Below are positions 33,824 through 51,419 of a stretch of 64,000 nt of DNA, piece by piece (position 1 is the first letter of the stretch; the number at the start of each line of letters is the position of its first letter). The notes beneath the pieces were generated by a model. The model was not told the origin of the DNA and ran no database searches. It saw only the letters and a list, made by a program, of their open reading frames with translations. The stretch covers positions 2,356,001 to 2,420,000 of the forward strand of contig NZ_CP047957.1 in the NCBI RefSeq assembly GCF_014280035.1, written 5' to 3'. Source of the stretch: Synechococcus sp. A18-25c (GTDB lineage Bacteria > Cyanobacteriota > Cyanobacteriia > PCC-6307 > Cyanobiaceae). The translations under genes and the position numbers were made by a program.

Positions 33824-34933
33824 ATGGGCAAACGAAAAACACCACTCCATGGCCGCTGCCTAGAAGCAGGCGCAAAAATGGTTGAGTTTGCTGGATGGGA
33901 AATGCCCATTCAGTTTGATGGGGTGATACAAGAACACAAAGCAGTCCGACAGTCCTGCGGACTGTTTGACATCTCCCATATGGGTGTCATTACTTTGCGC
34001 GGTGAGCAAGCAAAAGAAGCCCTCCAAAATTTAGTCCCGTCAGACCTCTTCAGAATTGGGGCTGGCCAAGCCTGCTACACAGTACTAACCAATGAAAAGG
34101 GTGGAATCATCGACGATTTAATCGTTTACGACAACGGTTTCAACCAAGAGAACGTTCAAGAACTCCATCTTGTGATCAACGCAGCAACGGCCCAAAAAGA
34201 TATTGAATGGATTACAGATCATTCAAGGAAATACAAAGCAGACGTAGTTGACAAGAAAGGAAATGGGGTTTTACTTGCACTTCAAGGCCCTGGGAGCGAA
34301 CTAAAATTAGAAGCGGTCATAAAAAAGAATCTTAAAGAACTACCGTCATTTGGACATCAGACATTCATCACTGATCATTGTGGCGAGGTGATGATCAGCA
34401 GAACTGGATACACAGGTGAGGATGGATTTGAGTTGCTCATGGGAGAAGAAGAAGGAAAACATTTCTGGGATCTATGCCAGGCATCAGAAGTCCAACTTTG
34501 TGGACTAGCCGCTCGAGACATCCTGAGGCTTGAAGCAGGGATGCATCTTTATGGCAACGACATAACAGAAGAAACAACACCGTTCGAAGCAGGGTTAGGG
34601 TGGCTTGTTCACCTAGAAATGCCAAAAGACTTTATCGGTAGAAAATGCTTAGAAGAACAAGCAGAGGGGACGATCCAACAAAAACTTATTTGTATCAAAA
34701 TGGACGAAAGGGCCATACCCCGCAGGGGCTATAACATCCAAGACAGTAACGGAAACGTGGTCGGAGAAGTCACAAGCGGAGGCTGGTCACCAACATTAGA
34801 AGCTGGAATCGCGTTTGCGTGCGTGAACCAACGAGAGAGCAAATGTGGAACCAGGTTGAGCGTAGACATTAGAGGTCAACAGATCCCCTGCAAAGTTGTT
34901 AAACGACCATTTGTGAGAGGCCACAGGTTTTAA
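33824..34933 (+). CDS. gcvT: Glycine cleavage system T protein (aminomethyltransferase), 369 aa
   Basis: Catalyses the tetrahydrofolate-dependent step of glycine cleavage, releasing ammonia from the H-protein-bound intermediate, important in photorespiratory glycine use. Visible features: FAGWEMPIQFDGVIQEHKAV, CGLFDISHMG, ISRTGYTGEDGFELL, GLAARDILRLEAGMHLYGND and EVTSGGWSPTL. The length is normal. The gene is clearly AT-richer, with more AAA/GAA/ATT codons, than speE-speB upstream or aspS. Its product is complete, so it may be a transferred or replaced copy. It opens the low-GC tract that runs to about 49.4 kb. Confidence 0.93.
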   Translation: MGKRKTPLHGRCLEAGAKMVEFAGWEMPIQFDGVIQEHKAVRQSCGLFDISHMGVITLRGEQAKEALQNLVPSDLFRIGAGQACYTVLTNEKGGIIDDLIVYDNGFNQENVQELHLVINAATAQKDIEWITDHSRKYKADVVDKKGNGVLLALQGPGSELKLEAVIKKNLKELPSFGHQTFITDHCGEVMISRTGYTGEDGFELLMGEEEGKHFWDLCQASEVQLCGLAARDILRLEAGMHLYGNDITEETTPFEAGLGWLVHLEMPKDFIGRKCLEEQAEGTIQQKLICIKMDERAIPRRGYNIQDSNGNVVGEVTSGGWSPTLEAGIAFACVNQRESKCGTRLSVDIRGQQIPCKVVKRPFVRGHRF

Positions 34934-34952: not shown

Positions 34953-37073
34953 TTACGGACCAAGCCATTTCCAGACCATCACAGTAAGATCATCGAACTG
35001 CTCTTGTAGACCCTTGTATTGATCAACCGCACTGAGAATCGTACTCATAAGTGTGGATGCACTTTCGTCAGAGAAACGAATCAGTAATTGCTGAAGACGT
35101 TCACAACCCCAACCCTCCTCTGATGTTCCACGAGCATCAACAAGACCATCGCTATAAATCACCAATGAGTCGCGGGGCTGAAGCTGTAGGGTGGACACAG
35201 AATATTGAGCAGAATCAAATAAACCAATCGCAGGACCACCCATTGAATCTAATTTAGACAGCTCAGATGTGCCAATTATCAGGGGTGGCTCATGACCTGC
35301 ACTAATATATGAAACATATCCAGTTGAAGTATTAATTGCCGCAATAAAGACTGTCGCAAACATCATTGATGAATTCTGGTTTAAGGCCATATATTGATTC
35401 GTTTGTTCAATCGCTAAACGAATACATTCAGAAGCAATCTGGTCAGCTTGAGGATCAGGAATACTGTTTAAAGTCTCATGATCGTCAAGACGAGATGAAA
35501 GATCAATCAACTTCGAACGAATTAAGCTTCGAAAAACAGACATGTACAAAGCCGAAGGGACTCCTTTATCACAAACATCAGCAACAACAATAAAAACATA
35601 CTGACCAACTTTAACCATATCGTACCAATCAGCACCAATGGTTAATGCAGGACGTGAATACGCCTCGACTTCATAAAGGGATGAATTGGGTAGATCAGTA
35701 AGCAAAAAGTCAGCCTGAATCGCCTTTGCCGTCTCAAGCTGCTTTTCTGTTACAGCAAAGGACGTCGCTTGCGCAAGAAAACGTTTAAGACGATTCGCCG
35801 CACTTTGAATATCATGAACAAGCCCTCCCATCTCATCATTACCTCCATCTGGCAACTCTAAATCAAAATCACCATCACTAATACGATGCAGAGCATTAGC
35901 AGCTAGCGATATAGGGGATGAAATTGCACATGCCATTGATCGTACAATAAAAACAGCCAACAAAATACTAATAACTCCTATTAACACGAACAGAAACCCC
36001 AGCTGACGTATAGCAGTCAAGGGACGATTTTCATTCAAAAGAAGAACAATTGACCAAGCAGAATCGACTTTATTCGTGAGCACAAAATATCGATCATCCG
36101 CGATATCAATCCTTCGGTAAGATTTTGCACCTTCCATGGCACTGGAGATAACAGGATAAAGGCTGGCATATTTTGAAGATTTTATATCGTCTACATTGGG
36201 AATTAAGTAAGAACTTGCTTTGTCACCAGGAAAAAGAAGTTGGCCGGTATTACTAACTAAAATCAATGCACTCTCCACACCGGAGGGATCATTGAGAAAA
36301 TCATTCTGCTGAGTCTGGCCTGCCAACAATTCAAAACGTTGATCTGAAAACAATTCATCGAGACCAGTATCTTCAGCAAGTTTGTCAAGTGGAATACACA
36401 TGACAAGAATACCTGCCAGATCAGTCCTGACAGGAACAGACAGAACAGATGTATGGTCAATAAGATCCTGGGCAGATGTAATGACAACTGAATTTTTTTG
36501 AACTGTGCCATACTTAAACACAGGCTTGGAAACGTTTAGGCATCCCTGATCTGTGGTTCGTGACAAAACACTCTGGTAAGTGGGATAGCCACGCAATGCA
36601 GCTTGAAAATAATAACGATTCAACTGATTCGCTTCAGCAGCAAGCTTTTGCTTTGATCTGATCGAAGCTGTATGAGCGAGCAATTCAGGTGCTTCTGAGC
36701 TTGCAGACCAGAAACGCCAAAACCGACCAGGCTCAGAAACGTTTAAACGATTAAAAATTTTCTGGATTTCATCGATATTGCCTTGACGAAGTGCAGGAGC
36801 CTGAGAAAGATAATTCAGCGAATAAGAAACGCCAATCCCCCATTCACGCAAACCATAAGAAATCAACTCTGCTTCAGCCTGGAGTCGACGCTCAACTGAT
36901 TTATAAACTCTGGAAAAAACAACCTGATTTAAAACAACAAAGCCAATTCCTAACGTGGGAACAAGAGCAATCGCAATTCCTAAAGTCAGCTGATCACGAA
37001 CGGACAAAACGTGAAGCCGAGCAAAGAGACGATCAAGGAATCGAATAGATTTTTCTGACGGGGACTTTGTCAT
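34953..37073 (-). CDS. Cache-like sensor, HAMP and SpoIIE-type protein phosphatase, 706 aa
   Basis: Order: membrane helix (residues 30-55), a periplasmic domain of about 300 residues of the Cache/dCache kind, second helix (GFLFVLIGVISILLAVFIVR, about 355-375), HAMP (ALHRISDGDFDLELPDGGND) and a PP2C/SpoIIE phosphatase domain with GADWYD, VVADVCDKGVPSALYMS and YSDGLVDA plus QFDDLTVMVW. The acidic residues bind two metal ions. Such RsbU-like phosphatases dephosphorylate STAS anti-anti-sigma proteins, and two of these lie 7-10 kb away. It is on the minus strand, downstream of the amylase gene (85 bases between). Confidence 0.85.
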   Translation of the reverse strand: MTKSPSEKSIRFLDRLFARLHVLSVRDQLTLGIAIALVPTLGIGFVVLNQVVFSRVYKSVERRLQAEAELISYGLREWGIGVSYSLNYLSQAPALRQGNIDEIQKIFNRLNVSEPGRFWRFWSASSEAPELLAHTASIRSKQKLAAEANQLNRYYFQAALRGYPTYQSVLSRTTDQGCLNVSKPVFKYGTVQKNSVVITSAQDLIDHTSVLSVPVRTDLAGILVMCIPLDKLAEDTGLDELFSDQRFELLAGQTQQNDFLNDPSGVESALILVSNTGQLLFPGDKASSYLIPNVDDIKSSKYASLYPVISSAMEGAKSYRRIDIADDRYFVLTNKVDSAWSIVLLLNENRPLTAIRQLGFLFVLIGVISILLAVFIVRSMACAISSPISLAANALHRISDGDFDLELPDGGNDEMGGLVHDIQSAANRLKRFLAQATSFAVTEKQLETAKAIQADFLLTDLPNSSLYEVEAYSRPALTIGADWYDMVKVGQYVFIVVADVCDKGVPSALYMSVFRSLIRSKLIDLSSRLDDHETLNSIPDPQADQIASECIRLAIEQTNQYMALNQNSSMMFATVFIAAINTSTGYVSYISAGHEPPLIIGTSELSKLDSMGGPAIGLFDSAQYSVSTLQLQPRDSLVIYSDGLVDARGTSEEGWGCERLQQLLIRFSDESASTLMSTILSAVDQYKGLQEQFDDLTVMVWKWLGP

Positions 37074-37158
37074 CCTCAGATTTTAAGAGGTGAACAAAAA
37101 GCACGCAATAATTCCGTGTCATTATCACAGCATGAAAACAGAATGAAACGGCTCATCA

Positions 37159-39012
37159 TTAACGATTCGACCAAAGTGCATCAAACTTCTGTCGACCTGA
37201 TTCTGCAAGCAAAAAGCGCCTTGGAAGAATGCCCTCATATCTAGGCTGTGAGTATTCACTGATCACGACAAATTTGAATTGAATTTGCCGACCAACACTC
37301 TCATCAAATGCAACTTCACAGATCCAAGTATTTAGATTGACATATTCCATCCCATAAGCCTGATTAAGATCCCAATTGCCAAGTTCAAAACAATCGCCCA
37401 ACAAAACGACAGATTGACCGGGTGACGTCTCCAGTCCATTAAGTTGAAATGTGACGACAAGGGTGCCAGCCACCCGTTCACCAGTCGAACTTAAAAGAAA
37501 AGCACCAGAACTAGGCACATTGAGATGAAGCTGCCCATCCACATCAAAGAATTCTTGATTAGTTAATGCACAACACAAAGACTTGGTGTGAAGAGATCCT
37601 GGCAAATCCAACGTTAGTGAGGTTTGGGGACCATTGTTCAAGACGCAGATCGCAAAAGAGTCTCGATAGGAGCGGAGAAAAGCGTAAATATTTTCTGAGA
37701 CATAAAGCTGACGGTGTGACCCAAAAGTAAGGGCTTGGTTTCCTCGTCGTGTCGTAATAAGTTTTTCAAGCAACGTGAAGCATGAACACGTCAGGTCCCA
37801 GGTTTCCATCATTGGTCTGTTGTATGGATCACCACCACCATCGGTTTGATTCACAAGATATTGCTCTGTGCCATAAAAAACGCAAGGAACACCTCGAAGG
37901 CAAAAAAGCAGTATCAATGCCTGATCCAATGCTTGTTGAGAATCACAGATAGATAGAAATCGCGGCATATCATGGTTATCGATAAAGGTCACAAGCTCAT
38001 TCGCCCTGTGATAAACATGGTCATACGCCAAAACAGATTCAACTAAGTGGAAACCACCCGGCTCTTGTCCAGAAAACGCAAATCGAATTGCATCGCATAG
38101 ACCAAAATCGAGAATAGACATCCCCGATTGGTTTGCATAATCAACAGTTCGCTGCTCCCAGGGCTTACCGAACCCGTATTCACCAAACATGAACAATTCT
38201 GGCTTATGAGCTTTCATATCAGCTGTAAATTCCTGCCAGAACCAAATTGGCATGTGTTTGATAGTGTCAATCCGCAAAGCATCAACTCCAACATCCAACC
38301 AATCAATAATTGCTGATTTTATATATTTCCGATAGCCAGGATTGCGCTCATTAAAGGTTGCAAGACCACACATTTCACCGTTAATTAATTGAAACTCATC
38401 CTCCCAATCGGTTATCTCAGCATTGTGATGGTAAAAGCCATGAACATCATCGTTAAAATCACACAGAAGTTTGCCATCATCAAACACCACTCCTTTTGAT
38501 CCGTTCAAATCAGGAGAGCTATGATTGCAAACAACATCTAAAATGAGCTTGATATCATTAGCATGGAGTGAATCAACGAGTTGGCGCAATGTAGGGGAAG
38601 AATTAAGGCTATTAGGCTCATTGGTCGGCAAGAATCTTGGGTTAATACGCTTAAAGTCTTTTGTCCAGTAACCGTGCATTGGTGCACGATCATATTGCAT
38701 ATCATCAACCTGTTCAAACAAAGGGGAAAGCCACACTGCCGTAATGCCAAGCTGTTTAAGATACGGTATTTTTTCAATGATTCCCTGCAGATTACCACCC
38801 CAATACTTACCCCATTGGGTCCAAGTTTTGTCGTATAAACCTTGCTTAGAACCCCGATCCCAAACTCCTTGTCTCTCTTCTTCATCGCTCAATGCATCAT
38901 AAAATCGATCAACAATGAGAAAGTAAATTACTTCCTCGCGAAATTCACGCTCTGTGATTGACCAACCGCGGGTCAACGGATCAGACTCAAGTGTTAAAAG
39001 ATTAGGATTCAT
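37159..39012 (-). CDS. GH13 alpha-amylase-like enzyme with C-terminal CBM20, 617 aa
   Basis: The (beta/alpha)8 catalytic domain shows the conserved regions: ILDVVCNHSSPD, GVDALRIDTIKHMP (nucleophile Asp), LFMFGEYGFGKPW (acid/base Glu) and FIDNHDMPRF (third Asp). The last 100 residues (VTFQLNGLETSPGQSVVLLG, GNWDLNQAYGM) form a CBM20 starch-binding domain. No signal peptide, so it acts inside the cell, probably on glycogen. CGTase or maltogenic amylase activity is possible by architecture. Divergent from the epimerase-glgX operon; located next to the SpoIIE-type phosphatase gene. Confidence 0.88.
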   Translation of the reverse strand: MNPNLLTLESDPLTRGWSITEREFREEVIYFLIVDRFYDALSDEEERQGVWDRGSKQGLYDKTWTQWGKYWGGNLQGIIEKIPYLKQLGITAVWLSPLFEQVDDMQYDRAPMHGYWTKDFKRINPRFLPTNEPNSLNSSPTLRQLVDSLHANDIKLILDVVCNHSSPDLNGSKGVVFDDGKLLCDFNDDVHGFYHHNAEITDWEDEFQLINGEMCGLATFNERNPGYRKYIKSAIIDWLDVGVDALRIDTIKHMPIWFWQEFTADMKAHKPELFMFGEYGFGKPWEQRTVDYANQSGMSILDFGLCDAIRFAFSGQEPGGFHLVESVLAYDHVYHRANELVTFIDNHDMPRFLSICDSQQALDQALILLFCLRGVPCVFYGTEQYLVNQTDGGGDPYNRPMMETWDLTCSCFTLLEKLITTRRGNQALTFGSHRQLYVSENIYAFLRSYRDSFAICVLNNGPQTSLTLDLPGSLHTKSLCCALTNQEFFDVDGQLHLNVPSSGAFLLSSTGERVAGTLVVTFQLNGLETSPGQSVVLLGDCFELGNWDLNQAYGMEYVNLNTWICEVAFDESVGRQIQFKFVVISEYSQPRYEGILPRRFLLAESGRQKFDALWSNR

Positions 39013-39421
39013 ATCTACCGAGAATCAGTCGTGCAGTGGACAAAAATAAAAAGAAATCACAGATACAGGGCGATTCAAATCATGATGATGATGATGAAGG
39101 CCAAATTCATAGGTACAACGCCAAAGGAGATGAGAAGCAGGAAATCATCAGGACTAGTCAGACATCGGATGTGGGATGACAAACGAAAAAAGCGTAGCCC
39201 CCATAAAATTGCAGATGGTTTGATAGCTGCATAGTTACCAAAGCCATAGACATAAAACCAAAGACGGATGGATCTTGCTCTACTTTTTTTTAGATTCAAA
39301 CAATCGAAACAACAACTTTGTATCGAAAAGAACACAGAAAGCAAGCACGATCTTATCTATTAATTTTTCTTGCAATCAAGCGCGCGGGTAATGCCGTGGC
39401 TATGTTGACTCAGGATTGGTC
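39013..39421. other. Divergent promoter region, amylase versus PfpI-AGE-STAS-glgX operon
   Basis: This 409-base AT-rich spacer separates the divergent amylase and PfpI-like genes and should hold both promoters. It contains an ATGATGATGATGATG run at about 39078-39100 and a T-rich tract near 39284-39292. The frame at 39031-39234, whose product has five methionines in a row, looks like chance. I cannot point to a certain promoter or operator. Confidence 0.45.
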
Positions 39422-40018
39422 ATGCGGAGTATCAAATTGACCCAAAAGATTTTGGTGCTAATTGAAGAGCATTATGATGAAACTGAATACAATGTCTTCA
39501 ATGACTTTTTCCCAAGCAACGGCATAGAGGTTGAATATGCATCCTACCTATGGGGCAATGATTGCTTAACCTTCGAAGGGAACGACAAAACGAGCAAGGT
39601 TACGGTCAGCAAGTGCGTTAGTCAAACAAATTTGAACGATTACCAAGGCTTGATACTCATTGGCGGATACGCCATGGATCGACTCCGTTATGAAGAAACT
39701 TGCAGTGAAGTGAGTCAAGCGCCGGCTGTCGTTCTACTGCGCAAGGCTGTCGCTTTGATGGATCAAGGGTCCATCGCGATTGGAACAATTTGCCATTCAC
39801 TATGGCTGTTTTGTGCTGATCCAAACCTGATCCAAGGAAGAGAGGTGACATGCGCACACAACATTATTTGCGATGTTGAAAATGCAGGTGCAAAAGTCAT
39901 CAAGCAGTCTGGTGTCAACGTTGAACTTCATCAACAAGGTTTGCTCGTTACTGGAAAACATCCTGGATGCGTTGATGTCTTTGTTAGCGCATTTAAAAAT
40001 GCACTCAACAAACTTTAA
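39422..40018 (+). CDS. DJ-1/PfpI-family protein, 198 aa
   Basis: The class I glutamine-amidotransferase-like fold shows KILVLIEEHYDETEYNVF, LILIGGYAMDRLRYE and the nucleophile elbow GTICHSLWLFC (catalytic-type Cys followed by His). PfpI-like proteins range from proteases and amidases to glyoxalases and chaperones, so the reaction is not clear. The acidic partner residue is in the GLLVTGKHPGCVD region. ATG at 39422 is used (an upstream TTG at 39416 adds two residues). First gene of the operon leading to the AGE-like protein and glgX. Confidence 0.75.
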   Translation: MRSIKLTQKILVLIEEHYDETEYNVFNDFFPSNGIEVEYASYLWGNDCLTFEGNDKTSKVTVSKCVSQTNLNDYQGLILIGGYAMDRLRYEETCSEVSQAPAVVLLRKAVALMDQGSIAIGTICHSLWLFCADPNLIQGREVTCAHNIICDVENAGAKVIKQSGVNVELHQQGLLVTGKHPGCVDVFVSAFKNALNKL

Positions 40019-40057
40019 TTTTAGTCAAGACGTCCAAACCTACTATCAACCAAAACC

Positions 40058-41887
40058 ATGAACAACCTTACTTTCACATTCTCAGATCTAATCTCTGGAT
40101 ACGTAACCTCATACAACGAGGCCGAAAAGCTTATTGGTATCAAAACTTCTGACGGGAGAGAATTTGAAGCAAAACTAACAGGCAATACGTATGCCAAACT
40201 GAGCCAAAATCTTGGAGAAGACTGGCCAGACCGATCAGGTGAACTTCATAAGCTCTTAGTTCCAGGGCAGATGATCTTCGTCTATGGAACGTTTTTCCCG
40301 GAAAACAAAGTCAAGTTTGAAGTCAATTACATTGTATTCGCTGGTGATGGAAAAGATCAATACCGCTACGCTGATGAACCAGGCTGGTGGATCAAACAAA
40401 TTGACCAAATTGCTTCGTCTTATTGTGAGTGGCAATTCAATGCTCCAACACAAGATATTGACTACAACAATTACCGAACAATCATTAACCTGACAGGGGG
40501 GAAAGAGCAGGAAGACTATCTCCAAGAAACTGACACAATTTCTAGGATGGTCTATGGAATGGCATGCGCGTACATGCTAACGGGTAAGGATTTATATCTA
40601 GATGCTGCTGAAAAGGGAACCGAATATTTACGGGATAAAATGCGATTCACAGATACTGATACAGGCTTGATTTACTGGTACCACGGTCAAAAAGTTGGTA
40701 GTGGTGGAGAAGAGCAAAAGCTATTAGTGTCAGAGTTCGGCGATGATTATGATTGCATTCCCGCCTATGAACAAATTTATGCATTAGCTGGCCCTGTTCA
40801 AACCTATCGAATCACAGGAGATCCTCAAATTCTCCATGACGCTGAAAAAACGGTGGATTTGTTCGACGAATGTTTTAAAGATAACGAAAAAGGGGGATAT
40901 TACTCACATATTCATGCTGTGACCCTTAGCGCGCATGAAGCAAGCCTTGGACGTAACCAAGCGAAAAAGAACTGGAATTCCGTAGGAGATCACGCTCCAG
41001 CCTACCTCATTAATCTTTGGCTCGCGACAGGAGAAGAACGATATAGGACAATGTTGGAGGAAACATTCGATACAATTACAAGCCACTTTCCAGATTACGA
41101 GGAAAGCCCCTTTGTCCAAGAAAAATTCTTTGACGATTGGAGTAAAGATCAAACTTGGGGGTGGCAACAAAATCGAGCCGTCGTGGGACACAATCTCAAA
41201 ATCGCCTGGAATTTGATGAGATTTTATGCTGAGATGGGAAAAGACAAATACATCGATATCGCAAAAAAAATTGCTTCACTAATGCCTAAAGTGGGATACG
41301 ACAGCCAAAGATTTGGATGGTATGACGTTGTCGAACGGGTGCTTGGAAAAGACGAAAAATATCATCGATACGCATGGCATGACCGGAAAGCATGGTGGCA
41401 GCAAGAACAGGGAATCCTTGCTTACTTGATTCTTCAAGGACATATGCCAGACAATCAGGAATACAAAAAATATGCAGAAGAGTCAGCGGCTTTCTACAAC
41501 GCCTTTTTCTTGGACAATAACGATGGTGGCGTCTATTTTAATGTTCTTGCGAATGGTGTGCCCTATCTAGTTGGCACAGAAAGATACAAAGGTAGCCATT
41601 CAATGAGTGCTTATCACTCCACTGAGCTTTGCTTCCTTTCAACAATATATATCGATCTCATGATTAAGAAACGACCTCTTAATCTCTATTTCAAGCCAAT
41701 GCCTAATGGGTTCAAAGACAGACTACTTAGAGTCGCACCTGACATTCTTCCCAAAGACTCTCTCTATATCAGCAAATGCGAAATTGATGGTAAAGAGCAT
41801 TCTGATTACGATTCAAAAACAATGACCGTTCGGCTTCCAGAAGCTGATCAGCGACTGAAAGTCAAAGTCACAATTGAGACAAAGTAA
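40058..41887 (+). CDS. AGE-family (N-acylglucosamine 2-epimerase-like) protein with extra N-terminal domain, 609 aa
   Basis: Residues 130-520 form an (alpha/alpha)6-barrel of the N-acylglucosamine 2-epimerase/cellobiose epimerase type, visible in VVGHNLKIAWNLMRFYAEMG, YAWHDRKAWWQQEQGILAYL (conserved H-x-x-K-x-x-W-x-x-QE) and KGGYYSHIHAVTLSAHEA. Residues 1-110 are a separate, unrecognised beta-rich domain, and residues 530-609 form another module. The exact substrate is unknown: 2-epimerisation of a glucose-type sugar released from glucan is one option. It lies between the PfpI-like and STAS genes, 13 bases before the latter. Confidence 0.72.
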   Translation: MNNLTFTFSDLISGYVTSYNEAEKLIGIKTSDGREFEAKLTGNTYAKLSQNLGEDWPDRSGELHKLLVPGQMIFVYGTFFPENKVKFEVNYIVFAGDGKDQYRYADEPGWWIKQIDQIASSYCEWQFNAPTQDIDYNNYRTIINLTGGKEQEDYLQETDTISRMVYGMACAYMLTGKDLYLDAAEKGTEYLRDKMRFTDTDTGLIYWYHGQKVGSGGEEQKLLVSEFGDDYDCIPAYEQIYALAGPVQTYRITGDPQILHDAEKTVDLFDECFKDNEKGGYYSHIHAVTLSAHEASLGRNQAKKNWNSVGDHAPAYLINLWLATGEERYRTMLEETFDTITSHFPDYEESPFVQEKFFDDWSKDQTWGWQQNRAVVGHNLKIAWNLMRFYAEMGKDKYIDIAKKIASLMPKVGYDSQRFGWYDVVERVLGKDEKYHRYAWHDRKAWWQQEQGILAYLILQGHMPDNQEYKKYAEESAAFYNAFFLDNNDGGVYFNVLANGVPYLVGTERYKGSHSMSAYHSTELCFLSTIYIDLMIKKRPLNLYFKPMPNGFKDRLLRVAPDILPKDSLYISKCEIDGKEHSDYDSKTMTVRLPEADQRLKVKVTIETK

Positions 41888-41900
41888 GGAGCCTGCAAAC

Positions 41901-42227
41901 ATGGACGTTCAAAGCAGCACATTTAAAAACTGGCAAGTGATCAAAGTCAGTGGTCAGATCGATTCAAAGACTGTGATCAAGCTTCGAGATTTTATCGATT
42001 CAGAGCTAAAGCCAGATCAACCTGTGGCTCTCGAGCTCACAGATGTTCCATTCATGTCGAGTGCCGGCTTACGCACGCTGTTAACACTACAAAGGAAAAC
42101 GAAGGAACTGAACATCTCACTGGCCCTCATCGGACTTGGAGATGGGATAGCAGACACAATGAAAGTGACGGGCTTCTATCAGTTTTTCACGATCTATGAG
42201 TCACTTGAGGCGATCCCGGGGGTCTGA
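41901..42227 (+). CDS. STAS-domain anti-anti-sigma-type protein (copy 1), 108 aa
   Basis: A complete single STAS domain: WQVIKVSGQIDSKTVIKLRD, then LELTDVPFMSSAGLRTLLTL with the serine that is phosphorylated in SpoIIAA/RsbV-type proteins. The ATG at 41901 follows a good AAGGAG-type site (41886-41892). It lies between the AGE-like gene and glgX (5 bases to glgX), inside the same operon, so antagonist and enzymes are made together. Expected partners are an RsbW-like kinase (44710) and the SpoIIE phosphatases. Confidence 0.88.
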   Translation: MDVQSSTFKNWQVIKVSGQIDSKTVIKLRDFIDSELKPDQPVALELTDVPFMSSAGLRTLLTLQRKTKELNISLALIGLGDGIADTMKVTGFYQFFTIYESLEAIPGV

Positions 42228-42232
42228 CAGAA

Positions 42233-44341
42233 ATGAATTATGAAAGAATTGACAATTTACCAACAGACACGCTGGAGGGATATCGGACAAGACCAGGCAA
42301 ACCATTGCCATTCGGCGTTTCCCATGTTCCCGGTGGTCTAAATTTCTCGATCTATACCTCTGCGGGAACAGCCTGTTCACTAGTACTTTTTAGTCGAGAA
42401 AACAACACATGTCTAGCTGAAATTAAAATCCCCGATCACTATCGAATAGGAGATGTTTATGCCATCGTAGTCTATGGTCTTGATGATGAAGACATCGAAT
42501 ACGGATTTAAAGTAGATGGACCAAATGCGCCAGAACTTGGCTATCGATTTAATTCAAAAAATATCCTGATGGATCCATATGCAAAAGTTGTTTCGGGCAG
42601 GGATGTGTGGGGAGAAGAGCCAGATTGGAGCAATCCATACCAATATCGATCGCGAGTTGCATTTGATGATTTTGATTGGGAAGGTGATCATCCACTTGAG
42701 ATAGATGATGCAGATCTTGTGATCTACGAACTTCACGTACGATCCTTCACGAAGAGTGAAACTTCAAATAATAAATTTAAGGGTACTTATGCAGGCATTG
42801 TGGAAAAGATTCCCTATCTCAAATCACTTGGGATCAATGCTGTTGAATTAATGCCCGTTTTTGAGTTTGACGAATTTGAAAACTCAAGAATTCATCCAGA
42901 TACTGGTGAAAGACTCTACAACTATTGGGGCTATAGCACAGTAGGATTCTTTGCTCCTAAAGCAGGACTGGCAGAGTCAGGACGCTTTGGAATGCAGGTT
43001 GATGAATTCAAACAACTAGTGAAACAACTGCATCAAGCGGGTATTGAAGTCATTCTTGACGTAGTTTTTAACCATACAGCTGAGGGTAACGAACGCGGGC
43101 CAACAATTTCGTTTAAAGGGTTAGACAACAAAATATACTATATGCTGACTCCTGAAGGATATTACTTTAATTTCAGCGGAACTGGAAATACCCTAAACTG
43201 CAATAACCCAGTGGTTAGAAATCTAGTTCTTGATTGCCTAAGGTATTGGACATCTGAATACCACATTGACGGATTTAGGTTTGACTTGGCAAGTATTTTG
43301 GGTCGTGATCCGTGGGGTGCACCCTTAAGTAACCCGCCACTCCTAGAATCACTTGCCTTTGATCCGATTCTGTCATCGTGCAAATTAATTGCTGAAGCCT
43401 GGGATGCTGGTGGCTTATATCAAGTCGGAACATTCCCTGCTTTTGGCCGCTGGTCTGAGTGGAATGGAAAATACAGAGACACCTTGAGACGATATCTAAA
43501 AGGAGATGACGGCCAACTTGGTGAAATGGCACAAAGAGTTCAAGGATCTCCTGATCTCTATCAATGGAATGGTCGATCACCAGCAACATCCATTAATTTT
43601 ATTACCTGCCATGATGGATTTACATTGGCAGACTTAGTTTCATTCAATGGAAAACATAACGAAGCGAACGGCGAAAATAATCAAGATGGAGGCAATGACA
43701 ACTACAGCTGGAACTGTGGTGTAGAAGGTTGGAGTGACGACAGCAATATCATCTCGCTACGCAGAAAACAATGCATGAATGCTCTTAGCATGCTGATGAC
43801 AAGTAGAGGAACACCTATGTTGCTCATGGGTGATGAATTTGGACGATCTCAACAAGGAAACAACAATGCTTACTGTATTGATTCGCCACTCACATGGGTT
43901 GACTGGAATTTACTTGAAAGCAATAGCATGCTCTTTGAATTTACTCAACATTTAATTCGTTTTAGACATAATCATCCATGCTTACGCATCAACGACTTTG
44001 CACATCAGGGAAGCAAGTATTTCCCGAGCTGCAGCTTCCATGGCACATCGCCTTGGCAGGTCAATTGGTCAAATGAAACAAAACAACTTGCATGGCTTAT
44101 GAGCTGTGAGCAATCCGAGAATGGTGACATTGATACCGTTTATGTTGCCACTAACACTGCTCACTATGCAACATGGTTTGATTTGCCATCATTGCCCAAC
44201 GACTATGAATGGCAGCTCAATTTCAATACAGGTGATAGTCAGACTCCCGTTACTCAGGGATCTTCATCATTCTCAGATCAAGGTATTTTAGTGGGTGAAA
44301 GGTCTGTCGTTATCTTTTCTGCGTCTCGCTCCGAGACGTAA
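42233..44341 (+). CDS. glgX: Glycogen debranching enzyme (isoamylase/GlgX type), 702 aa
   Basis: A GH13_11-type enzyme with an N-terminal CBM48-like domain (residues 15-140: PLPFGVSHVPGGLNFSIYTS) and the catalytic barrel with ILDVVFNHTAEGNERGP, IDGFRFDLASILGRD (nucleophile), LIAEAWDAGGLYQVG (acid/base) and FITCHDGFTLADLV. It cleaves alpha-1,6 branches in glycogen or limit dextrin. The length is typical. Sits between two STAS genes and is AT-rich in codon use. Together with the divergent amylase it could degrade storage glucan. Confidence 0.93.
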   Translation: MNYERIDNLPTDTLEGYRTRPGKPLPFGVSHVPGGLNFSIYTSAGTACSLVLFSRENNTCLAEIKIPDHYRIGDVYAIVVYGLDDEDIEYGFKVDGPNAPELGYRFNSKNILMDPYAKVVSGRDVWGEEPDWSNPYQYRSRVAFDDFDWEGDHPLEIDDADLVIYELHVRSFTKSETSNNKFKGTYAGIVEKIPYLKSLGINAVELMPVFEFDEFENSRIHPDTGERLYNYWGYSTVGFFAPKAGLAESGRFGMQVDEFKQLVKQLHQAGIEVILDVVFNHTAEGNERGPTISFKGLDNKIYYMLTPEGYYFNFSGTGNTLNCNNPVVRNLVLDCLRYWTSEYHIDGFRFDLASILGRDPWGAPLSNPPLLESLAFDPILSSCKLIAEAWDAGGLYQVGTFPAFGRWSEWNGKYRDTLRRYLKGDDGQLGEMAQRVQGSPDLYQWNGRSPATSINFITCHDGFTLADLVSFNGKHNEANGENNQDGGNDNYSWNCGVEGWSDDSNIISLRRKQCMNALSMLMTSRGTPMLLMGDEFGRSQQGNNNAYCIDSPLTWVDWNLLESNSMLFEFTQHLIRFRHNHPCLRINDFAHQGSKYFPSCSFHGTSPWQVNWSNETKQLAWLMSCEQSENGDIDTVYVATNTAHYATWFDLPSLPNDYEWQLNFNTGDSQTPVTQGSSSFSDQGILVGERSVVIFSASRSET

Positions 44342-44381
44342 TCACCAACCAACTCATCCAACACGTTCAGGTTGATCCAAC

Positions 44382-44708
44382 ATGACACTTGCAATTGGCG
44401 TCACAAAAGCAGAGGATTGCGTCACCATGACACTGAGTGGTGAAGTGGACACAAAAACAGCCCCAGATCTTTTACAAGAACTTACCGGACTTGATTTAAA
44501 TGCTCTCGGCCAATTACGCCTTAAGCTTGCGGAGGTTGGCTTCATGAGCAGTGCAGGACTCAGAGCTCTTGTTTTTGCAAAACAAAAAATGCCTCATAGT
44601 TCTAGCCTATATATCATTGGAGCCTCAGAAGTCATTCAAGATACCATCACAAAAACTGGGCTGGCCCAAGCAGTCGTCATGGTAGACAACGAGGGTGAAA
44701 TTGAATGA
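44382..44708 (+). CDS. STAS-domain anti-anti-sigma-type protein (copy 2), 108 aa
   Basis: Another single STAS domain, MTLAIGVTKAEDCVTMTLSG with LKLAEVGFMSSAGLRALVFA holding the phospho-acceptor serine region. It is diverged from the 41901 copy outside this motif (for example in the first strands), so it is an old paralogue, not a fresh duplication. One base separates its stop from the ATG of the RsbW-like kinase gene, the classical rsbV-rsbW arrangement. Confidence 0.88.
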   Translation: MTLAIGVTKAEDCVTMTLSGEVDTKTAPDLLQELTGLDLNALGQLRLKLAEVGFMSSAGLRALVFAKQKMPHSSSLYIIGASEVIQDTITKTGLAQAVVMVDNEGEIE

Positions 44709-44709
44709 T

Positions 44710-45180
44710 ATGAGCAATACGATAAGAGAGCAAAGTCTCGAAAAATATGAAGCGCCAGCCTCAATGGAATTCTGGGACGACTTTACTAATTTTGCAAGTG
44801 AACAAATTAATGATTTACTTGTGGATGAATCCCGTGCGTATAAGTTGAGGCTTGCCTATGAAGAATTAATCTCCAATATTATTCGATATGCAAATGATGG
44901 CAAGCAACAGAACAGTGAGGCCACCAAACTAGAGGTATCACTTGTTCTAAAAACTATTGATGCAGAGCGATGGCTTATTTTACAAACAAAAGATACGGGC
45001 ACTCAATTCAATCCACACTTTTATCACCGATCGCCCGTTGATACAGATCAGCCAGTTGCTGAGAGACAAATTGGCGGTCTTGGACTGTTCCTGATTGAAC
45101 AATCAGTCGACAAAGCAACATACGACTGGATCGACAACAAGAATATTTACCAACTAAAAATGTGCTGCTCCGCACATTAA
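44710..45180 (+). CDS. RsbW-like GHKL serine kinase/anti-sigma-type ATPase, 156 aa
   Basis: The HATPase_c fold of anti-sigma kinases: N-box RLAYEELISNIIRYAND, G1 box ILQTKDTGTQFNP and G2 region IGGLGLFLIEQSVD. No histidine-kinase dimerisation domain, so it is of the RsbW/SpoIIAB class that phosphorylates STAS partners. Start ATG 44710, one base after the STAS gene; an overlapping GTG start at 44695 is less likely. A 294-base gap with no clear gene follows before the second phosphatase. Confidence 0.85.
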   Translation: MSNTIREQSLEKYEAPASMEFWDDFTNFASEQINDLLVDESRAYKLRLAYEELISNIIRYANDGKQQNSEATKLEVSLVLKTIDAERWLILQTKDTGTQFNPHFYHRSPVDTDQPVAERQIGGLGLFLIEQSVDKATYDWIDNKNIYQLKMCCSAH

Positions 45181-45474
45181 AATAACAAAGCAGTAACGGT
45201 TAAGATGCCGACAAAACGATGGGCGTTCTTAATTAAAGGAAGAATCTTAAATCTTTCACAAGCCGTGTTAAAGGCCGGTGATCTATATAAACGCTTGCGA
45301 ATTCAATATAGATCCCGAATGGTGATTATCTTCAAAAATAAATACTGACCTCCACATAACCGTTTAAGACCATCTTGCAAAAGGTCCTAGATCGAAACGA
45401 TGACGATTTTTGTGTGAGCAAACTAATATTTCAGCAGCAAGTCAAACAAGCCTGAAGAGCAGTTTGTTACTAAG

Positions 45475-47580
45475 ATGAAAATAAAGCCACGGGAAATGCT
45501 CTTTAAATCTGCCCCGTCCGTGCGCCAAAAGTATTGGCTTGTCATCGTGGCAGCCTGTCTAGGTGCACTTGCCAATTTGCATCCCTATGAGCTCTACGTC
45601 AATACGAGTTTGACGCTTGGCATGAGCATCGCTCTCTTCACGCTCTTCGTAGCAAGAGGCTGGTGGGGATTTGCTGTTGCAATCCCTGCAGGTTTCATGA
45701 ACATGGATTATCTGGGTCGCTATTACTCATTTATAATTTACATGATTGAAATGCTATCTCTTACCTATTTCATTAACAGTCGTTCTGGAAATCGTCTTTT
45801 AGAAAAAGGGCACATTATTATTGTTGGGTTCCTATTTTGGTTATTGATCGGTGCACCACTCCATTACCTTGCGCATTACTTTCTAGTCGGCCTGACTCAT
45901 ATTGAAGCTTTTACGCTAGCAGAAAAGACCCTTTTGAATGGTGTTGTCAACATATTGATCGCATTCATTGCTTATTCAGCTCTCGCCTTATTGCAGAATA
46001 AACGAGAGATGGAACGAGCGGCTGTCTCAATTCAAGCCTTAACGCTATCGACTGTTTACAGCCTGATTGTCTTTATTTCACTGTTTACGGCTTCTACGCT
46101 TTTCAAAAATGTAAACACAATGCAAGCTAAGAATCTTTCAGTATTTTTTCGCGATCAAGCTGCATACATTTTTGATACTTTAAGTCTAAGCAGCTCAGAG
46201 GAAGAGCAAAAGAAAATTATTGACTATATGGAGTCACAAAATGTGTTTTTCAGATGGGAGAATCTAAAGTCTCCTAGTGAGGTTGTATCAACAGATAATC
46301 AAGATATCAATAAGGTCATCGAATCCTATCAACCGTCATCAGCTCGAACACCACTCTCACGTCTAGCTGCTGAACTGGCGGAGCCTCCGAACAGGATCAG
46401 ATTATTAATGCCTCCGAGCATCGATAAAAAACGTTTGCTGAAAAAAATTGAGATGAGTTATTGGAGAGTACGACTCTTTAACGATGAAGAATCCGTAACC
46501 ATCATTCAACGCGCTCTACCAAGTTTTAACGCTCTGATCGGCTTTTACCGAAGCATGTTAAATACTTTGATCATATGCCTGATGATCGGAATCATCATCA
46601 GTGTCCTCATATCATTAATAATCCACAGAGAATTCGTTTCTGTTTTAAAAACTAAACGGACAATTGCTGATTCCAATGCCCAAAAAGACGACATTGATGA
46701 AGACGAAGACATCTACTTACAGTTATCCCCAATATGTGAAGTTCGAGAACTTGCAGATAAGGTCAATGAAAGAACATCAATCATCGAAGCTAGTAAAAAG
46801 AAGATTGAAGAGCTAAACAATATTGCACAACAGCAATTAAGCACGGCAGGCGAAATCCAACAATGCTTTCTTGGCAAGCGAGACGAGTTTTCTGAAAAAC
46901 CAGATGTCAGTCTATTCATGCGCCCTGCATACAATGCAGGCGGAGATTGGTATGATATTTTTGAGGTGAATTCTAAAACCTATCTTGTTGTCGCAGATGT
47001 TTGCGACAAAGGTGTAGGTGCAGCATTATTTATGTCTGTGTTTCGGAGCCTCATTCGATATTCTGCAGAATCACTCTGCGCACAGAATCCTGAAACAAAT
47101 GAACCCCTCGATGAAGTCATTGAAAGTGTCAATAATTACATGAGCACGAAACATGCAGATACAACTATGTTTGCCACTGTTTTTTTAGCATGCATAAATA
47201 GAGATCTTCAACAACTAGATTATATCCTGGCAGGGCACGAACATCCGATTCTACTTAGTTCGAAAGGAGAGAGCACCGAGTTTGAATTTTCAGGGCCGGC
47301 AATTGGCTTGTTCCCTGATGCAACGTATTCCATTGGAAGCATCAAATATGATCAAGGTTCAATCTTGGTGGGCTACTCCGACGGGGTTGTCGATGCTCGG
47401 AATACTAATAATGTTTCCTACGGTCATGAACGGCTGATGGAACTTATTTTAGACCTCAAAAAGAATGACCCTGATCTAAAAGCCAAAACCATTACAGATA
47501 CCCTGATCAAAGAACTGGATGAGCATATTGGAGAAGCAGAACAATTTGACGACATTACTGCTGTAGCAGCAATCCTTTAA
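45475..47580 (+). CDS. Multi-pass membrane sensor with SpoIIE-type phosphatase domain, 701 aa
   Basis: Six or seven helices (residues 20-210) of a MASE-like sensor, an extracytoplasmic part (about 215-345), another helix (NTLIICLMIGIIISVLISLI), a coiled linker (EASKKKIEELNNIAQQQLS) and the PP2C/SpoIIE domain with AGGDWYDIF, VVADVCDKGVGAALFMSVFR and YSDGVVDA plus EQFDDITAVAAI. It differs from the 34953 phosphatase in its sensory part while keeping the same catalytic motifs. So two different signals may converge on the two STAS proteins encoded just upstream. Confidence 0.82.
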   Translation: MKIKPREMLFKSAPSVRQKYWLVIVAACLGALANLHPYELYVNTSLTLGMSIALFTLFVARGWWGFAVAIPAGFMNMDYLGRYYSFIIYMIEMLSLTYFINSRSGNRLLEKGHIIIVGFLFWLLIGAPLHYLAHYFLVGLTHIEAFTLAEKTLLNGVVNILIAFIAYSALALLQNKREMERAAVSIQALTLSTVYSLIVFISLFTASTLFKNVNTMQAKNLSVFFRDQAAYIFDTLSLSSSEEEQKKIIDYMESQNVFFRWENLKSPSEVVSTDNQDINKVIESYQPSSARTPLSRLAAELAEPPNRIRLLMPPSIDKKRLLKKIEMSYWRVRLFNDEESVTIIQRALPSFNALIGFYRSMLNTLIICLMIGIIISVLISLIIHREFVSVLKTKRTIADSNAQKDDIDEDEDIYLQLSPICEVRELADKVNERTSIIEASKKKIEELNNIAQQQLSTAGEIQQCFLGKRDEFSEKPDVSLFMRPAYNAGGDWYDIFEVNSKTYLVVADVCDKGVGAALFMSVFRSLIRYSAESLCAQNPETNEPLDEVIESVNNYMSTKHADTTMFATVFLACINRDLQQLDYILAGHEHPILLSSKGESTEFEFSGPAIGLFPDATYSIGSIKYDQGSILVGYSDGVVDARNTNNVSYGHERLMELILDLKKNDPDLKAKTITDTLIKELDEHIGEAEQFDDITAVAAIL

Positions 47581-47716: not shown

Positions 47717-49342
47717 CTAGAAAAAGAGCCAAACCTGAAATCCTGCAACGACGGCAGGCGAAACACCAGGATCGCCACCTGGATTAACAATAAACTGAAT
47801 GTTAGGCATCAGTTTAAGACTTTGATTGAGATTAAAGCTATAATTTAGTTCAGTTGCCCATTCAGTTCCAGGAGTATATGTCTCTGGAACTAAGCCAAGC
47901 AAGAAATAATCACTGTTAAATGAAGCATAGCTAGTTCCAATGCTAAATGTATCAAAAGGTCGTTTAGGTAACAAACCCTCTATCACCAACCCAGCCTGTC
48001 CGCCTGAGTAAAACTTTTGCACATCAGGATTGAAACCCAAACCACCACTCAGAAAAATTCGATGATCCAAACCCAAAGAAAACCCTGGGATCCTCAAGCT
48101 AAAGATCCCATAGGCACCGTTATTTGTAGAGTCAGCAGACTCTGAGTCTGCCACAGTTTGAAATGATCCGGACCCAAGCCATCCACCTAAAGTGATCGTC
48201 CCAGGAGGCAAGTTAGATTGGTAGATTGCATTCGCCTGGTCCCAAGAAGAAGCTTTTGAAATATGATTTTGCTGACTAACTTGTACAGGTATTTGCGCCT
48301 TGGTCAAAATCGGGACGCGCAGCTCTGCGAAATGCGCCACTCCGTTTCCCTGATTAAATCTAAAATCCAGACCATGATATTTAGGTGCGAATGTATCCGG
48401 TGCGATCTGGTAGATGCCATATCTTAAGTTAACATTGTTTGAATCGCCAAAAGCCACAACCGCGCCATAGCTATTGAAAGGATTGCCAGGTATATCAATC
48501 ATTGAAGGAACCCCTTCTGCCCAACCACAAAGACCAAAATTAGAAAAATAACATTGAATCGGATTAACAGTAAAATCTTGGGCCTGCATTAATTTTCCTA
48601 ATTTCACCATCGAAATTAACTCACCTTCGGCTTTATATTCTAAATTTAAATAATTGAGGCGCGCTATTGGACCATTCCCGAAATTCCACTGCGTATTCAG
48701 TTGATTTGGTATCGATGAGGAAAGAATCTGTCCAGCGCGCTGCGTAAAAAGGGCATTGATAGCAATCTTCGATTGAAATGATTGATGAGCTTGCTGTTCA
48801 GGCGACGTTGAGTCCCGCTGCCAAGAAAAACCATTTCTCACCGCCTCTAGAGGCATCAAACGAAAGCCCAAATTAAAAAGATTTGACGAAGTCGGTTGAA
48901 CCTGTGGGGAAGAAAACGACGCATTATTTTGGCTCAAAATCGAAGCATTAAGTTCAAACCACTCCGGCATTGATAATGCTTGATTTAAATTCCATCCCTC
49001 CTGCAATGAAATGGTCGGAAGTGCTTCAGCCGTATTGAGGTTATTTGTCTGTTGAGCGACATATTCAAGACGGAGATCATTGGCCTTCTTTTGAAGGCTT
49101 TTATGAGTATTGCTTTTTTCCGCTTGGAATTCTCTTGCAACCTGAACAGGTGGCTCGCGACCAGCATGGTCTTGTTGATCCCTCGTTTCAACAATTTCAG
49201 AACGAGCAGACTGCGCTGTTGAAACAGTTCCCGCTGCCCCCAACACAACAAGACAAGCCACCAACCGACCTCGAAAATTGCTGGAAAGCTTCGTATCCTG
49301 CAAGCCGAAGGGAAACAAATCATTCTCCGGAGATTGCAGCAA
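47717..49342 (-). CDS. OprB-type carbohydrate-selective porin, 541 aa
   Basis: The N-terminal SNFRGRLVACLVVLGAAGTV gives a signal peptide, and the barrel part shows repeated amphipathic beta-strands and the late motif SIGTSYASFNSDYFL with a C-terminal NPGGDPGVSPAVVAGFQVWL ending in Phe, as required for outer-membrane insertion. Cyanobacterial porins usually carry an SLH domain before the barrel; I do not see one here, only about 100 residues of charged linker. Start TTG at 49342 is uncertain. It ends the AT-rich tract and could import sugars or other small solutes. Confidence 0.78.
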   Translation of the reverse strand: MLQSPENDLFPFGLQDTKLSSNFRGRLVACLVVLGAAGTVSTAQSARSEIVETRDQQDHAGREPPVQVAREFQAEKSNTHKSLQKKANDLRLEYVAQQTNNLNTAEALPTISLQEGWNLNQALSMPEWFELNASILSQNNASFSSPQVQPTSSNLFNLGFRLMPLEAVRNGFSWQRDSTSPEQQAHQSFQSKIAINALFTQRAGQILSSSIPNQLNTQWNFGNGPIARLNYLNLEYKAEGELISMVKLGKLMQAQDFTVNPIQCYFSNFGLCGWAEGVPSMIDIPGNPFNSYGAVVAFGDSNNVNLRYGIYQIAPDTFAPKYHGLDFRFNQGNGVAHFAELRVPILTKAQIPVQVSQQNHISKASSWDQANAIYQSNLPPGTITLGGWLGSGSFQTVADSESADSTNNGAYGIFSLRIPGFSLGLDHRIFLSGGLGFNPDVQKFYSGGQAGLVIEGLLPKRPFDTFSIGTSYASFNSDYFLLGLVPETYTPGTEWATELNYSFNLNQSLKLMPNIQFIVNPGGDPGVSPAVVAGFQVWLFF

Positions 49343-49583
49343 TTTTAAGCCGTTTATTGATCAAAAGGAAGCCTCAATTAAGCAAGTTCAAACTCTCTAA
49401 TAGGAATGTTATTGATGTTTCAGGGTCGATCCCGGATCGGTCTCGGCACGTCCTTCTCCATGGGGCACCCAAATAAAGGGAAACCGTCCTGAGATGAACC
49501 ACTCGACTGCTCAGCGACCAGCGCACTCCATCAAGCAGCCAGCAAGGTGGGACAATCGCCAACTAACTTCATCTGTTTTCACC

Positions 49584-51419
49584 ATGCGCAGCAACGGTTG
49601 CGGCGACCTGCGAGAGCAGACCATCGACAAGCAGGTGCAACTGTGCGGCTGGGTGGATCGACGCCGCGATCACGGTGGGGTGATCTTCATTGACCTCAGA
49701 GACCGCAGCGGCACGGTGCAGATCACCGTTGACCCGGATCTGGGAGCCGAAGCGTTCGCTGTCGCCGAACATCTCCGCAGCGAAACCGTGTTGCAGGTTG
49801 AGGGAATAGTTCGAGCCCGTCCCGCTGAATCCCTCAACGACAAGCTCGCGACAGGCGCTGTGGAGGTGCTGGCCAGTGGCATCACTGTGCTGAACAGCGT
49901 CAAGGGCAACCTGCCGTTCCCCGTGTCGGTGCACGACGAGGAAAACACCCGCGAAGAGCTGCGTCTGCGTCACCGCTATCTGGATCTGCGCCGCAAGCGC
50001 ATGAACGACAACCTGCGCCTGCGGGCCCAGACCATCCAGGCCGCTAGACGCTTTCTTGAGGACGAAGGTTTCATCGAGGTGGAGACGCCGGTGCTGACCC
50101 GCTCCACTCCTGAGGGCGCCCGTGACTACGTGCTGCCCAGCCGGGTCTGCGGCGGCGACTGGTTTGCTCTGCCCCAGTCCCCCCAGTTGTTCAAGCAGCT
50201 GCTGATGGTGGGCGGCATCGAGCGCTATTACCAGGTGGCCCGCTGTTTCCGCGACGAAGACCTGCGCGCCGACCGACAGCCGGAATTCACCCAGCTGGAC
50301 ATCGAGATGAGCTTTATGGATCAGGAGCAGATCCTGGAGCTGAACGAATCGCTGATCTGCGCGATCTGGAAAGCCGTGAAGGGCATCGAACTGCCGCGGC
50401 CCTTCCCCCGCATGACCTGGCATGACGCCATGGATCGCTACGGCACCGACAGACCCGACACCCGCTACGGCATGGAGCTCACCAACGTGAGTGACATCGT
50501 CAAAGACATGGGCTTCAAGGTGTTCAGCGGCGCCGTGAAATCCGGCGGCGCTGTGAAATGCATTGCGGTGCCCGGCGGCAACGATGCCCTCTCCAATGTG
50601 CGCATCAAACCCGGCGGCGATGTTTTCAGCGAAGCCCAGAAAGCCGGTGCCGGTGGCCTGGCCTTCATTCGCGTGCGTGACGGTGGCGAAATCGACACGA
50701 TCGGCGCCATCAAGGACAATCTCAGCGATGAGCAGAAGCAGGAGCTGCTCAGCCGCACTGGCGCAGAACCCGGCACCCTGCTGCTCTTCGGCGCCGGCGA
50801 CACCGCCACGGTGAACAAGGCCCTCGATCGCATACGCCAGTACTTGGCCAAGGAGCTGGGCATGGTCAAAGCCGACCAAGACAACGATCAGTGGAATTTC
50901 CTCTGGGTGGTGGACTTCCCGATGTTCGAGTTCAACAACGACGAGAACCGTTATGAGGCCTTGCACCACCCCTTCTGTGCCCCCAACGACGAGGATCTCG
51001 GCAACGATGCATCGCAATGGGCCGACACCCTGCCCGGGGCTCGGGCCCAGGCCTACGACCTGGTGCTGAATGGCCTTGAGCTCGGCGGTGGCTCCCTGCG
51101 CATCCATGACTCCGCCCTACAGCGTCAGGTTTTGCAGACCGTTGGTCTGCCCCTCGAGGAGGCCCAAGAACAGTTCGGCTTCCTGATGGACGCATTGGAT
51201 GTAGGCGCACCTCCCCACGGCGGCTTGGCCTTCGGTGTGGACCGCATGGTGATGCTGCTGGCGGGAGAGGAATCAATCCGCGACACCATTGCCTTCCCCA
51301 AGACCCAACAGGCGCGCTGCTTGATGACCAATGCCCCGGGGGGCGTGGCCGACAAGCAGCTGGAAGAGCTGCATGTGGCCAGCACCTGGGTGGATCCAAG
51401 CGAAGAAAAGCAGGACTAG
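49584..51419 (+). CDS. aspS: Aspartyl-tRNA synthetase, 611 aa
   Basis: A class II synthetase: anticodon-binding OB fold ([20 protein letters not shown]), motif 2 region ([20 protein letters not shown] with [10 protein letters not shown]), a bacterial GAD insertion (about residues 300-420) and motif 3 ([17 protein letters not shown]). ATG at 49584 ([12 protein letters not shown]) is the family start; the frame is open to 49494 but those residues are unlike AspRS. Return to GC-rich sequence is abrupt here. A strong hairpin terminator follows 48 bases downstream of the stop. Confidence 0.96.

Follow-up and report, generated by a model that had tools for sequence, protein, structure and literature searches.

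Partner switches such as RsbU/V/W-SigB and SpoIIE/AA/AB-SigF of Bacillus are built from a phosphatase, a STAS protein, and a HATPase kinase, and in the SiaABCD system of Pseudomonas aeruginosa a membrane SpoIIE-type phosphatase and a small kinase act on a STAS-like protein that switches a diguanylate cyclase directly. The founding descriptions of the icfG cluster of Synechocystis PCC 6803 are reportedly those of Beuf 1994 and Shi 1999, as cited in later papers. Here, we describe an icfG-type operon, carried on a horizontally acquired island, in a 64,000-nucleotide stretch of Synechococcus sp. A18-25c (positions 2,356,001-2,420,000 of a 2.51 Mb single-contig genome; hereafter the window, to whose whole length this term refers). 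Our proposal is that its kinase and two phosphatases set the phosphorylation of the STAS proteins, and that these would control the glucan enzymes encoded alongside them, which we regard as evenly balanced between right and wrong.

Among the products of the Synechocystis operon slr1852-slr1862 are the epimerase Slr1855, the antagonist Slr1856, a GlgX, and IcfG (PMC8670252), to which the STAS protein Slr1859 and the kinase Slr1861 were added by PMC12329169. In Synechocystis, both STAS proteins are substrates of the kinase, IcfG removes the phosphate from Slr1856 but not from Slr1859, and mutants are defective with glucose at low carbon (PMC12329169). The window locus is a cluster of this type, an identity that an earlier, sequence-only reading of the window overlooked, and its gene set is thus already known. 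The two clusters share their core genes; going by locus numbers, AGE, STAS, GlgX, and STAS also succeed one another in the same way, and in each cluster an RsbW kinase and a SpoIIE-type phosphatase come after STAS2. The window agrees with icfG in cluster content, in a phosphoacceptor Ser in both STAS proteins, and in the catalytic residues of kinase and phosphatases. Kinase and phosphatase are swapped, slr1860 (phosphatase) lying ahead of slr1861 (kinase) in Synechocystis and the kinase coming first in the window. The window differs further in having two membrane phosphatases outside the enzyme set, a CBM20 amylase, an OprB porin, and a low-GC (guanine-cytosine content) island. The wider family described below differs from Synechocystis icfG in including AGE~STAS2 fusions and noncyanobacterial members. 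As for SiaABCD, SiaA is the top NCBIfam match of both window phosphatases, but membership was rejected because the scores (52.6 and 49.9 bits) are far from the cutoff of 700, as is SiaB at 19.1 against 85; the SiaABCD enzyme is a diguanylate cyclase, whereas the window has glucan enzymes, and Pfam finds no diguanylate cyclase among the island genes. Genes in the window were called by Pfam and NCBIfam profile searches with motif inspection, and those of the cluster are as follows.

34953..37073, minus strand: SpoIIE_A, PPM phosphatase with HAMP (Pfam SpoIIE 131 bits, HAMP)
37159..39012, minus strand: GH13 amylase with C-terminal CBM20 (Pfam alpha-amylase, CBM_20, and Malt_amylase_C)
39416..40018, plus strand: DJ-1/PfpI-family protein, opening the plus-strand set (Pfam 57.7 bits)
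40058..41887, plus strand: AGE-superfamily protein of 609 amino acids, Slr1855 position (Pfam AGE family 52 bits)
41901..42227, plus strand: STAS1, anti-sigma-antagonist type, Slr1856 position (Pfam STAS 63 bits)
42233..44341, plus strand: GlgX debranching enzyme, Slr1857 position (NCBIfam TIGR02100)
44382..44708, plus strand: STAS2, phosphosite Ser57, Slr1859 position (Pfam STAS 44.5 bits)
44710..45180, plus strand: RsbW/SpoIIAB-type kinase, Slr1861 type (HATPase_c_2 50 bits)
45475..47580, plus strand: SpoIIE_B, PPM phosphatase with several predicted membrane segments (Pfam SpoIIE 134 bits)

The sequence-only reading had named the STAS, kinase, SpoIIE, amylase-CBM20, AGE, and glgX genes, and Pfam and NCBIfam place every one of them where it had put them. 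Its spacing of 13, 5, 40, and 1 bases from AGE to the kinase is exact, with STAS1 starting at ATG 41901, just 3′ of an AGGAG, and the kinase at ATG 44710 within the HATPase_c_2 frame 44695-45180; a longer, 117-residue STAS1 frame begins at 41874 and supplies the numbering of Ser63 used below. The idea that these genes form one transcript appears right for DJ1-AGE-STAS1-GlgX-STAS2-RsbW, judged from sequence, and does not extend to SpoIIE_A and the amylase, which lie on the other strand, or to SpoIIE_B, which begins 294 bases past the kinase. A promoter and terminator scan was uninformative, returning fewer sites than shuffled sequences did. The catalytic motifs checked are kept in the kinase, in GlgX (GFRFDLA, IAEAWD, CHDG; 694 bits against the TIGR02100 equivalog cutoff of 640.9), in the amylase (DALRID, FGEYG, FIDNHD; no signal peptide was seen by eye), and in both phosphatases (DVCDKG and YSDG in each, with DDLT in SpoIIE_A and DDIT in SpoIIE_B). 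SpoIIE_A has strong hydrophobic segments at 29-47 and 359-377 and a weaker one at 209-227; the two strong ones are predicted membrane segments, with a region between them, and the protein also carries HAMP.

The order of these genes is kept far from the window. Our cross-phylum set comprises the best 80 of at least 566 confirmed stretches from a profile scan of genome contigs and is not a random sample; together with six loci from a family search, it makes up an 86-locus set, from which L106 and L112 were excluded because they duplicate the L025 and L027 contigs. A further phylum sample of 386 genomes has loci for the best matches only. The 80 loci fall in Cyanobacteriota (32), Bacteroidota (26), Pseudomonadota (9), Chloroflexota (6), Nitrospirota (2), Thermodesulfobacteriota (2), Balneolota (1), and Planctomycetota (1), with one unnamed. 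All five genes AGE-STAS1-GlgX-STAS2-RsbW lie on one strand within 9 kb in 63 of the 80, spanning seven phyla. Chance adjacency is excluded, because all 86 loci have a STAS gene no more than 3.5 kb downstream of AGE (78 of them within 300 bases). With loci that have room as the denominator, STAS1 adjoins GlgX in 84/85, the count treating L051 as lacking GlgX because its frame extends upstream, and GlgX adjoins STAS2 in 73/78, followed by a kinase or phosphatase in 69/71. The STAS2 profile behind these neighborhood counts also contained STAS1 rows, from loci that have no STAS2 gene. The sequence-only reading had staked its proposal on conservation of this order in relatives, and the neighborhood comparison bears it out strongly, far beyond picocyanobacteria; retention of the interleaved order this far outside the cyanobacteria seems to be new.

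The STAS neighbors distinguish the operon GlgX from its relatives. In 16 operon-bearing genomes, the operon GlgX has a STAS gene upstream in every case and is flanked by STAS on both sides within about 1.5 kb in 15, the miss being L171, where no STAS2 occurs in the 1.5 kb examined. Outside the operon, 14 GlgX/GH13 matches have locus data (many more matches had none); 13 of these show no STAS gene in the surrounding 1.5 kb or so, and the remaining one is next to an AGE~STAS fusion. A DJ-1 homologue is present in 71/86 loci; of the 76 with room, 56 have it upstream in the same orientation, no more than 3.5 kb away. The kinase residues N61, D100, G127, G128, and G130 are kept in 73/73 rows. Both Ser residues of the STAS1 motif SSAGLR are kept in 87/87 upstream STAS rows, and STAS2 Ser57 in 75/75 downstream rows. 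In a tree of 165 STAS domains, the upstream and downstream copies form two position-locked clades across phyla, with L051, mislabeled by the frame artifact noted above, as the single exception.

A second line of evidence comes from AGE proteins of about 720-750 residues with a C-terminal STAS domain, which we found in 16 cyanobacterial genomes.

L013-L020, L024, L113-L121, L195-L200, and L216: AGE~STAS2 fusion loci, mostly beside a second-type GlgX

This neighboring GlgX, of a different and lower-scoring type, adjoins the fusion in 15/16 genomes (as two frames in G162), and in G503 only a 32-bit GlgX fragment is seen, at the stretch edge. Every fused row scores 25-98 bits with the STAS2 profile and lower or not at all with the STAS1 profile; both profiles were rebuilt from position-labeled rows, and the assignment also rests on the alignment. 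Tree placement of the fused domains was set aside as unreliable, the stem of the three rows used being about 4 in length. In four picocyanobacterial fusions, Pfam STAS scores lie above the cutoff of 22.6 bits in two (36.6, 27.1) and below it in two (19.6, 16.4). At the fused phosphosite, Ser is found in G270, G620, and G503 and Thr in G540 and G522; eight fusions have Asp, and Glu, Asn, and Gly occur in G416, G047, and G018, respectively. On the predicted proteins, the fusion is a physical tie of the STAS domain to the AGE enzyme, the shift of the phosphosite toward Asp and Glu resembles a phospho-state that has been frozen, and the pairing hints at a switch that may act on the enzyme itself. 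The AGE~STAS2 fusions seem to be new. The same AGE-STAS2 pairing recurs in a variant operon, DJ1-AGE-STAS2-RsbW-SpoIIE (G416, L226 5918-10944), from which STAS1 and GlgX are jointly absent; as a single case, this is only a hint. A further AGE~STAS fusion suspected from frame lengths on contig C208 of G416 was rejected, since STAS2 is a separate gene there. Other proteins related to AGE, sharing 39-45% identity with the fused query, are encoded at G620:C1:878130, G433:C3:1980192, and G563:C2:3229618.

The AGE-like protein of the window is strikingly conserved, being 60-86% identical to 40 homologues chosen among its best matches. Its AlphaFold prediction (predicted local distance difference test score of 82.8, predicted template modeling score of 0.89) has an N-terminal beta domain, an alpha/alpha barrel, and a C-terminal beta part, and the closest solved fold is the Runella glucose-2-epimerase 8h1l; profile comparison, too, puts the protein nearest to Runella glucose-2-epimerase (E 4.4e-7). 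Pfam, predicted fold, and structure comparison agree on the AGE alpha/alpha barrel. N-Acylglucosamine and cellobiose 2-epimerases carry the catalytic motif GHxxE. The window protein reads GHNLK at this site, keeping the His, with Lys381 invariant in 41/41 sequences, and so its reaction may be other than plain epimerization. Gln370 stands at the position of Asp254 of 8h1k.

The Bacillus SigB and SigF systems share with the window the phosphatase-STAS-kinase logic and the conserved phosphosite, but the island has no sigma factor, none being recognized by Pfam among the genes between gcvT and aspS. The Bacteroidota carriers differ from Bacillus in the same direction: 16 of 18 operon-bearing genomes have a single region-3 sigma match and hence no second one, two have 2, and extracytoplasmic function (ECF) factors are uncounted in this search. 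In 13 of those 16 genomes, the sole match sits in a 287-residue frame, which reads as the housekeeping sigma factor. SpoIIE phosphatases are present in 18/18. Seven other genomes, the window host included, have 3 to 9 region-3 matches, with 7 in the host. The single region-3 sigma factor in Bacteroidota carriers seems to be a new observation.

These observations suggest a mechanism in which SpoIIE_A and SpoIIE_B, together with one RsbW-type kinase, would set the phosphorylation of STAS1 Ser63 and STAS2 Ser57. Free STAS proteins, probably unphosphorylated, would bind the co-encoded glucan enzymes and set their activity, and phosphorylation would release them. STAS2 may pair with the AGE-like protein and, more tentatively, STAS1 with GlgX, so that storage-glucan debranching and chain-end processing would follow membrane signals post-translationally. 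We infer from sequence comparison that the enzymes are targeted directly, which way the effect runs, and how STAS proteins and enzymes pair. The sequence-only reading had suggested that the switch gates storage-glucan use in response to two membrane signals. Two such inputs are plausible, as both phosphatases have predicted membrane segments, and the gating is supported in part, by the position-locked STAS paralogues, the fusions, and the single region-3 sigma factor in Bacteroidota. In the passages of the open-access literature searched, control of the enzymes by STAS proteins is not stated.

Several points weigh against an enzyme-directed switch. Kurkela et al. 2025 describe Slr1861 as an anti-SigC factor paired with Ssr1600: the kinase is reported to interact with SigC, the pair controls RNAP (RNA polymerase)-SigC formation, and Slr1856 and Slr1859 are drawn as putative anti-sigma antagonists, their target sigma factors being marked as unknown (PMC12329169). 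STAS2 lies away from GlgX in 5/78 loci, and in L043 and L048 it stands with RsbW and SpoIIE about 6.5-7 kb off on the other strand, an arrangement that links it with the kinase and not with an enzyme. The phosphosite Ser/Thr is lost in 11/16 fusions, so that the STAS domain of the fusions may have a structural role only, and no clear kinase or phosphatase of the operon kind was seen beside the fusion in the 12-20 kb inspected in 12 fused genomes, the lone candidate being an 11-bit RsbW match in a 498-residue frame (L228). That no SigC/SigB-type target was found in 16/18 Bacteroidota carriers holds for the region-3 search, ECF factors being candidates there, and for genomes of unstated completeness.

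On the strength of the SigC findings, the kinase would be a SigC-type anti-sigma factor, the STAS proteins its antagonists, and the enzymes merely co-expressed carbon-metabolism genes. The seven region-3 matches of the host, one of them a Sigma-70 gene at 51502-52632, and a second stand-alone kinase-like gene and STAS gene outside the island are in keeping with this. That Sigma-70 gene, however, follows core aspS outside the low-GC island, its homologue lies near the operon in only 1/86 loci (L025, where the aspS context recurs), and no sigma family was recognized among the sequences of neighbor families common to at least eight of the 86. Sigma control would also leave the position-locking of STAS to AGE and GlgX, and the AGE fusion, unexplained, and meets a single region-3 match in most Bacteroidota carriers. 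We consider it unlikely, if a serious contender, and keep SigC-only control as a rival, not as our preferred explanation of the whole. Multiphylum conservation, the missing region-3 target in Bacteroidota, and the AGE~STAS2 fusions together favor an enzyme-directed switch over a sigma-only one. A combination of the two, in which the switch was ancestrally directed at enzymes and its kinase was afterwards drawn to SigC as well in cyanobacteria, turning it into a hub between glucan use and transcription, would reconcile the published SigC branch with noncyanobacterial conservation. Synechocystis ssr1600 has no adjoining putative anti-sigma gene (PMC12329169), which places the STAS gene of the SigC pathway outside the icfG operon, and the host's STAS and kinase-like genes outside the island fit as well. 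The enzyme branch of this combination is predicted from sequence comparison, and we judge the combination improbable. Least credible, to a degree that makes it very improbable, is that the signaling genes are tied to the enzyme genes by a common promoter and joint transfer, with no interaction between them. The cluster is indeed patchy in picocyanobacteria and occupies one site in two genera, but hitchhiking fits poorly with an interleaved order found in seven phyla, with the locking of two STAS clades to their positions, and with the AGE~STAS fusions.

The simplest reading, we infer, has the STAS proteins acting on the enzymes, with the published SigC branch as a cyanobacterial side branch. 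In its broadest form, which we hold with somewhat less than even confidence, the enzyme-directed switch would be a multiphylum partner switch on metabolic enzymes instead of a sigma factor, with STAS2 docking to AGE, STAS1 to GlgX, one kinase, and exchangeable sensors, and some cyanobacteria would have frozen it by fusion and Asp/Glu substitution. The conserved interleaved order and the natural fusion narrow the question of STAS partners to two named binding tests. If the proposal is true, a relay of phosphatase, kinase, and STAS proteins would switch glycogen use post-translationally in cyanobacteria and several other phyla, and SigC control as published would be a secondary branch.

The island that carries the operon is marked by a drop in GC from ~0.61 to ~0.41 between about 33.5 and 49.4 kb of the window, and its borders are formed by the following genes.

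33824..34933, plus strand: gcvT, divergent low-GC copy, left border of the island (Pfam GCV_T)
47717..49342, minus strand: OprB-type carbohydrate porin, GC 0.43, right end of the island (Pfam OprB 105 bits)
49494..51419, plus strand: aspS, core gene, right border (Pfam tRNA-synt_2)

Within the island, the additions are the two membrane phosphatases, the CBM20 amylase, and the OprB porin. An island at gcvT-aspS occurs in 2 of 31 searched genus genomes, the window host and G204, the latter retaining the OprB porin (L105), and the site is empty, with gcvT directly abutting aspS, in 27/27 other checkable genus genomes (left out were G282, with gcvT unmatched, and G284, with L164 at a contig edge). 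The divergent gcvT of this pair has a GC of 0.46 against 0.55-0.68 in congeners without the island, and the window copy is 67% identical to that of G204 and 53-57% to those of other congeners; from this divergence, gcvT probably arrived together with the island. A similar cluster lies between gcvT and aspS in a Vulcanococcus metagenome-assembled genome (L025), whose gcvT has a GC of 0.56. GC is below that of the far flank in 8/9 related clusters checked, the exception being L109. In the family search, the AGE protein was matched in 20/251 genomes: operon-type AGE in nine, window host included, at 74% identity or more; fused-type AGE as nine matches at 50-52% identity, one of them in G127, itself operon-bearing; and, for the rest, a fragment in G105 and two weak matches.

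Sensors vary while the core set stays, as a Dyadobacter example illustrates. In this locus (L229, 2686-18164), the operon runs about 15 kb beyond the kinase without a change of strand and takes in genes for an nSTAND-WD40 protein, a TonB receptor, and a HEAT-repeat protein, then two histidine-kinase-domain genes and a response-regulator~SpoIIE phosphatase. SpoIIE and RsbW are joined in one protein, in either order, with GAF in L063 (17040-18932) and L082 (14819-17308), the latter with a receiver as well. Upstream of AGE in L025-L104, unlabeled families recur in 36, 33, 26, 24, 23, and 22 of 86 loci, some of which resemble, by eye, carboxymuconolactone decarboxylases, thiamine diphosphate enzymes, glyoxalases, and GMC oxidoreductases. 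The stand-alone RsbW-like kinase and STAS genes of the host lie at G000:C1:1533246 and 1570619 and could cross-talk with the island.

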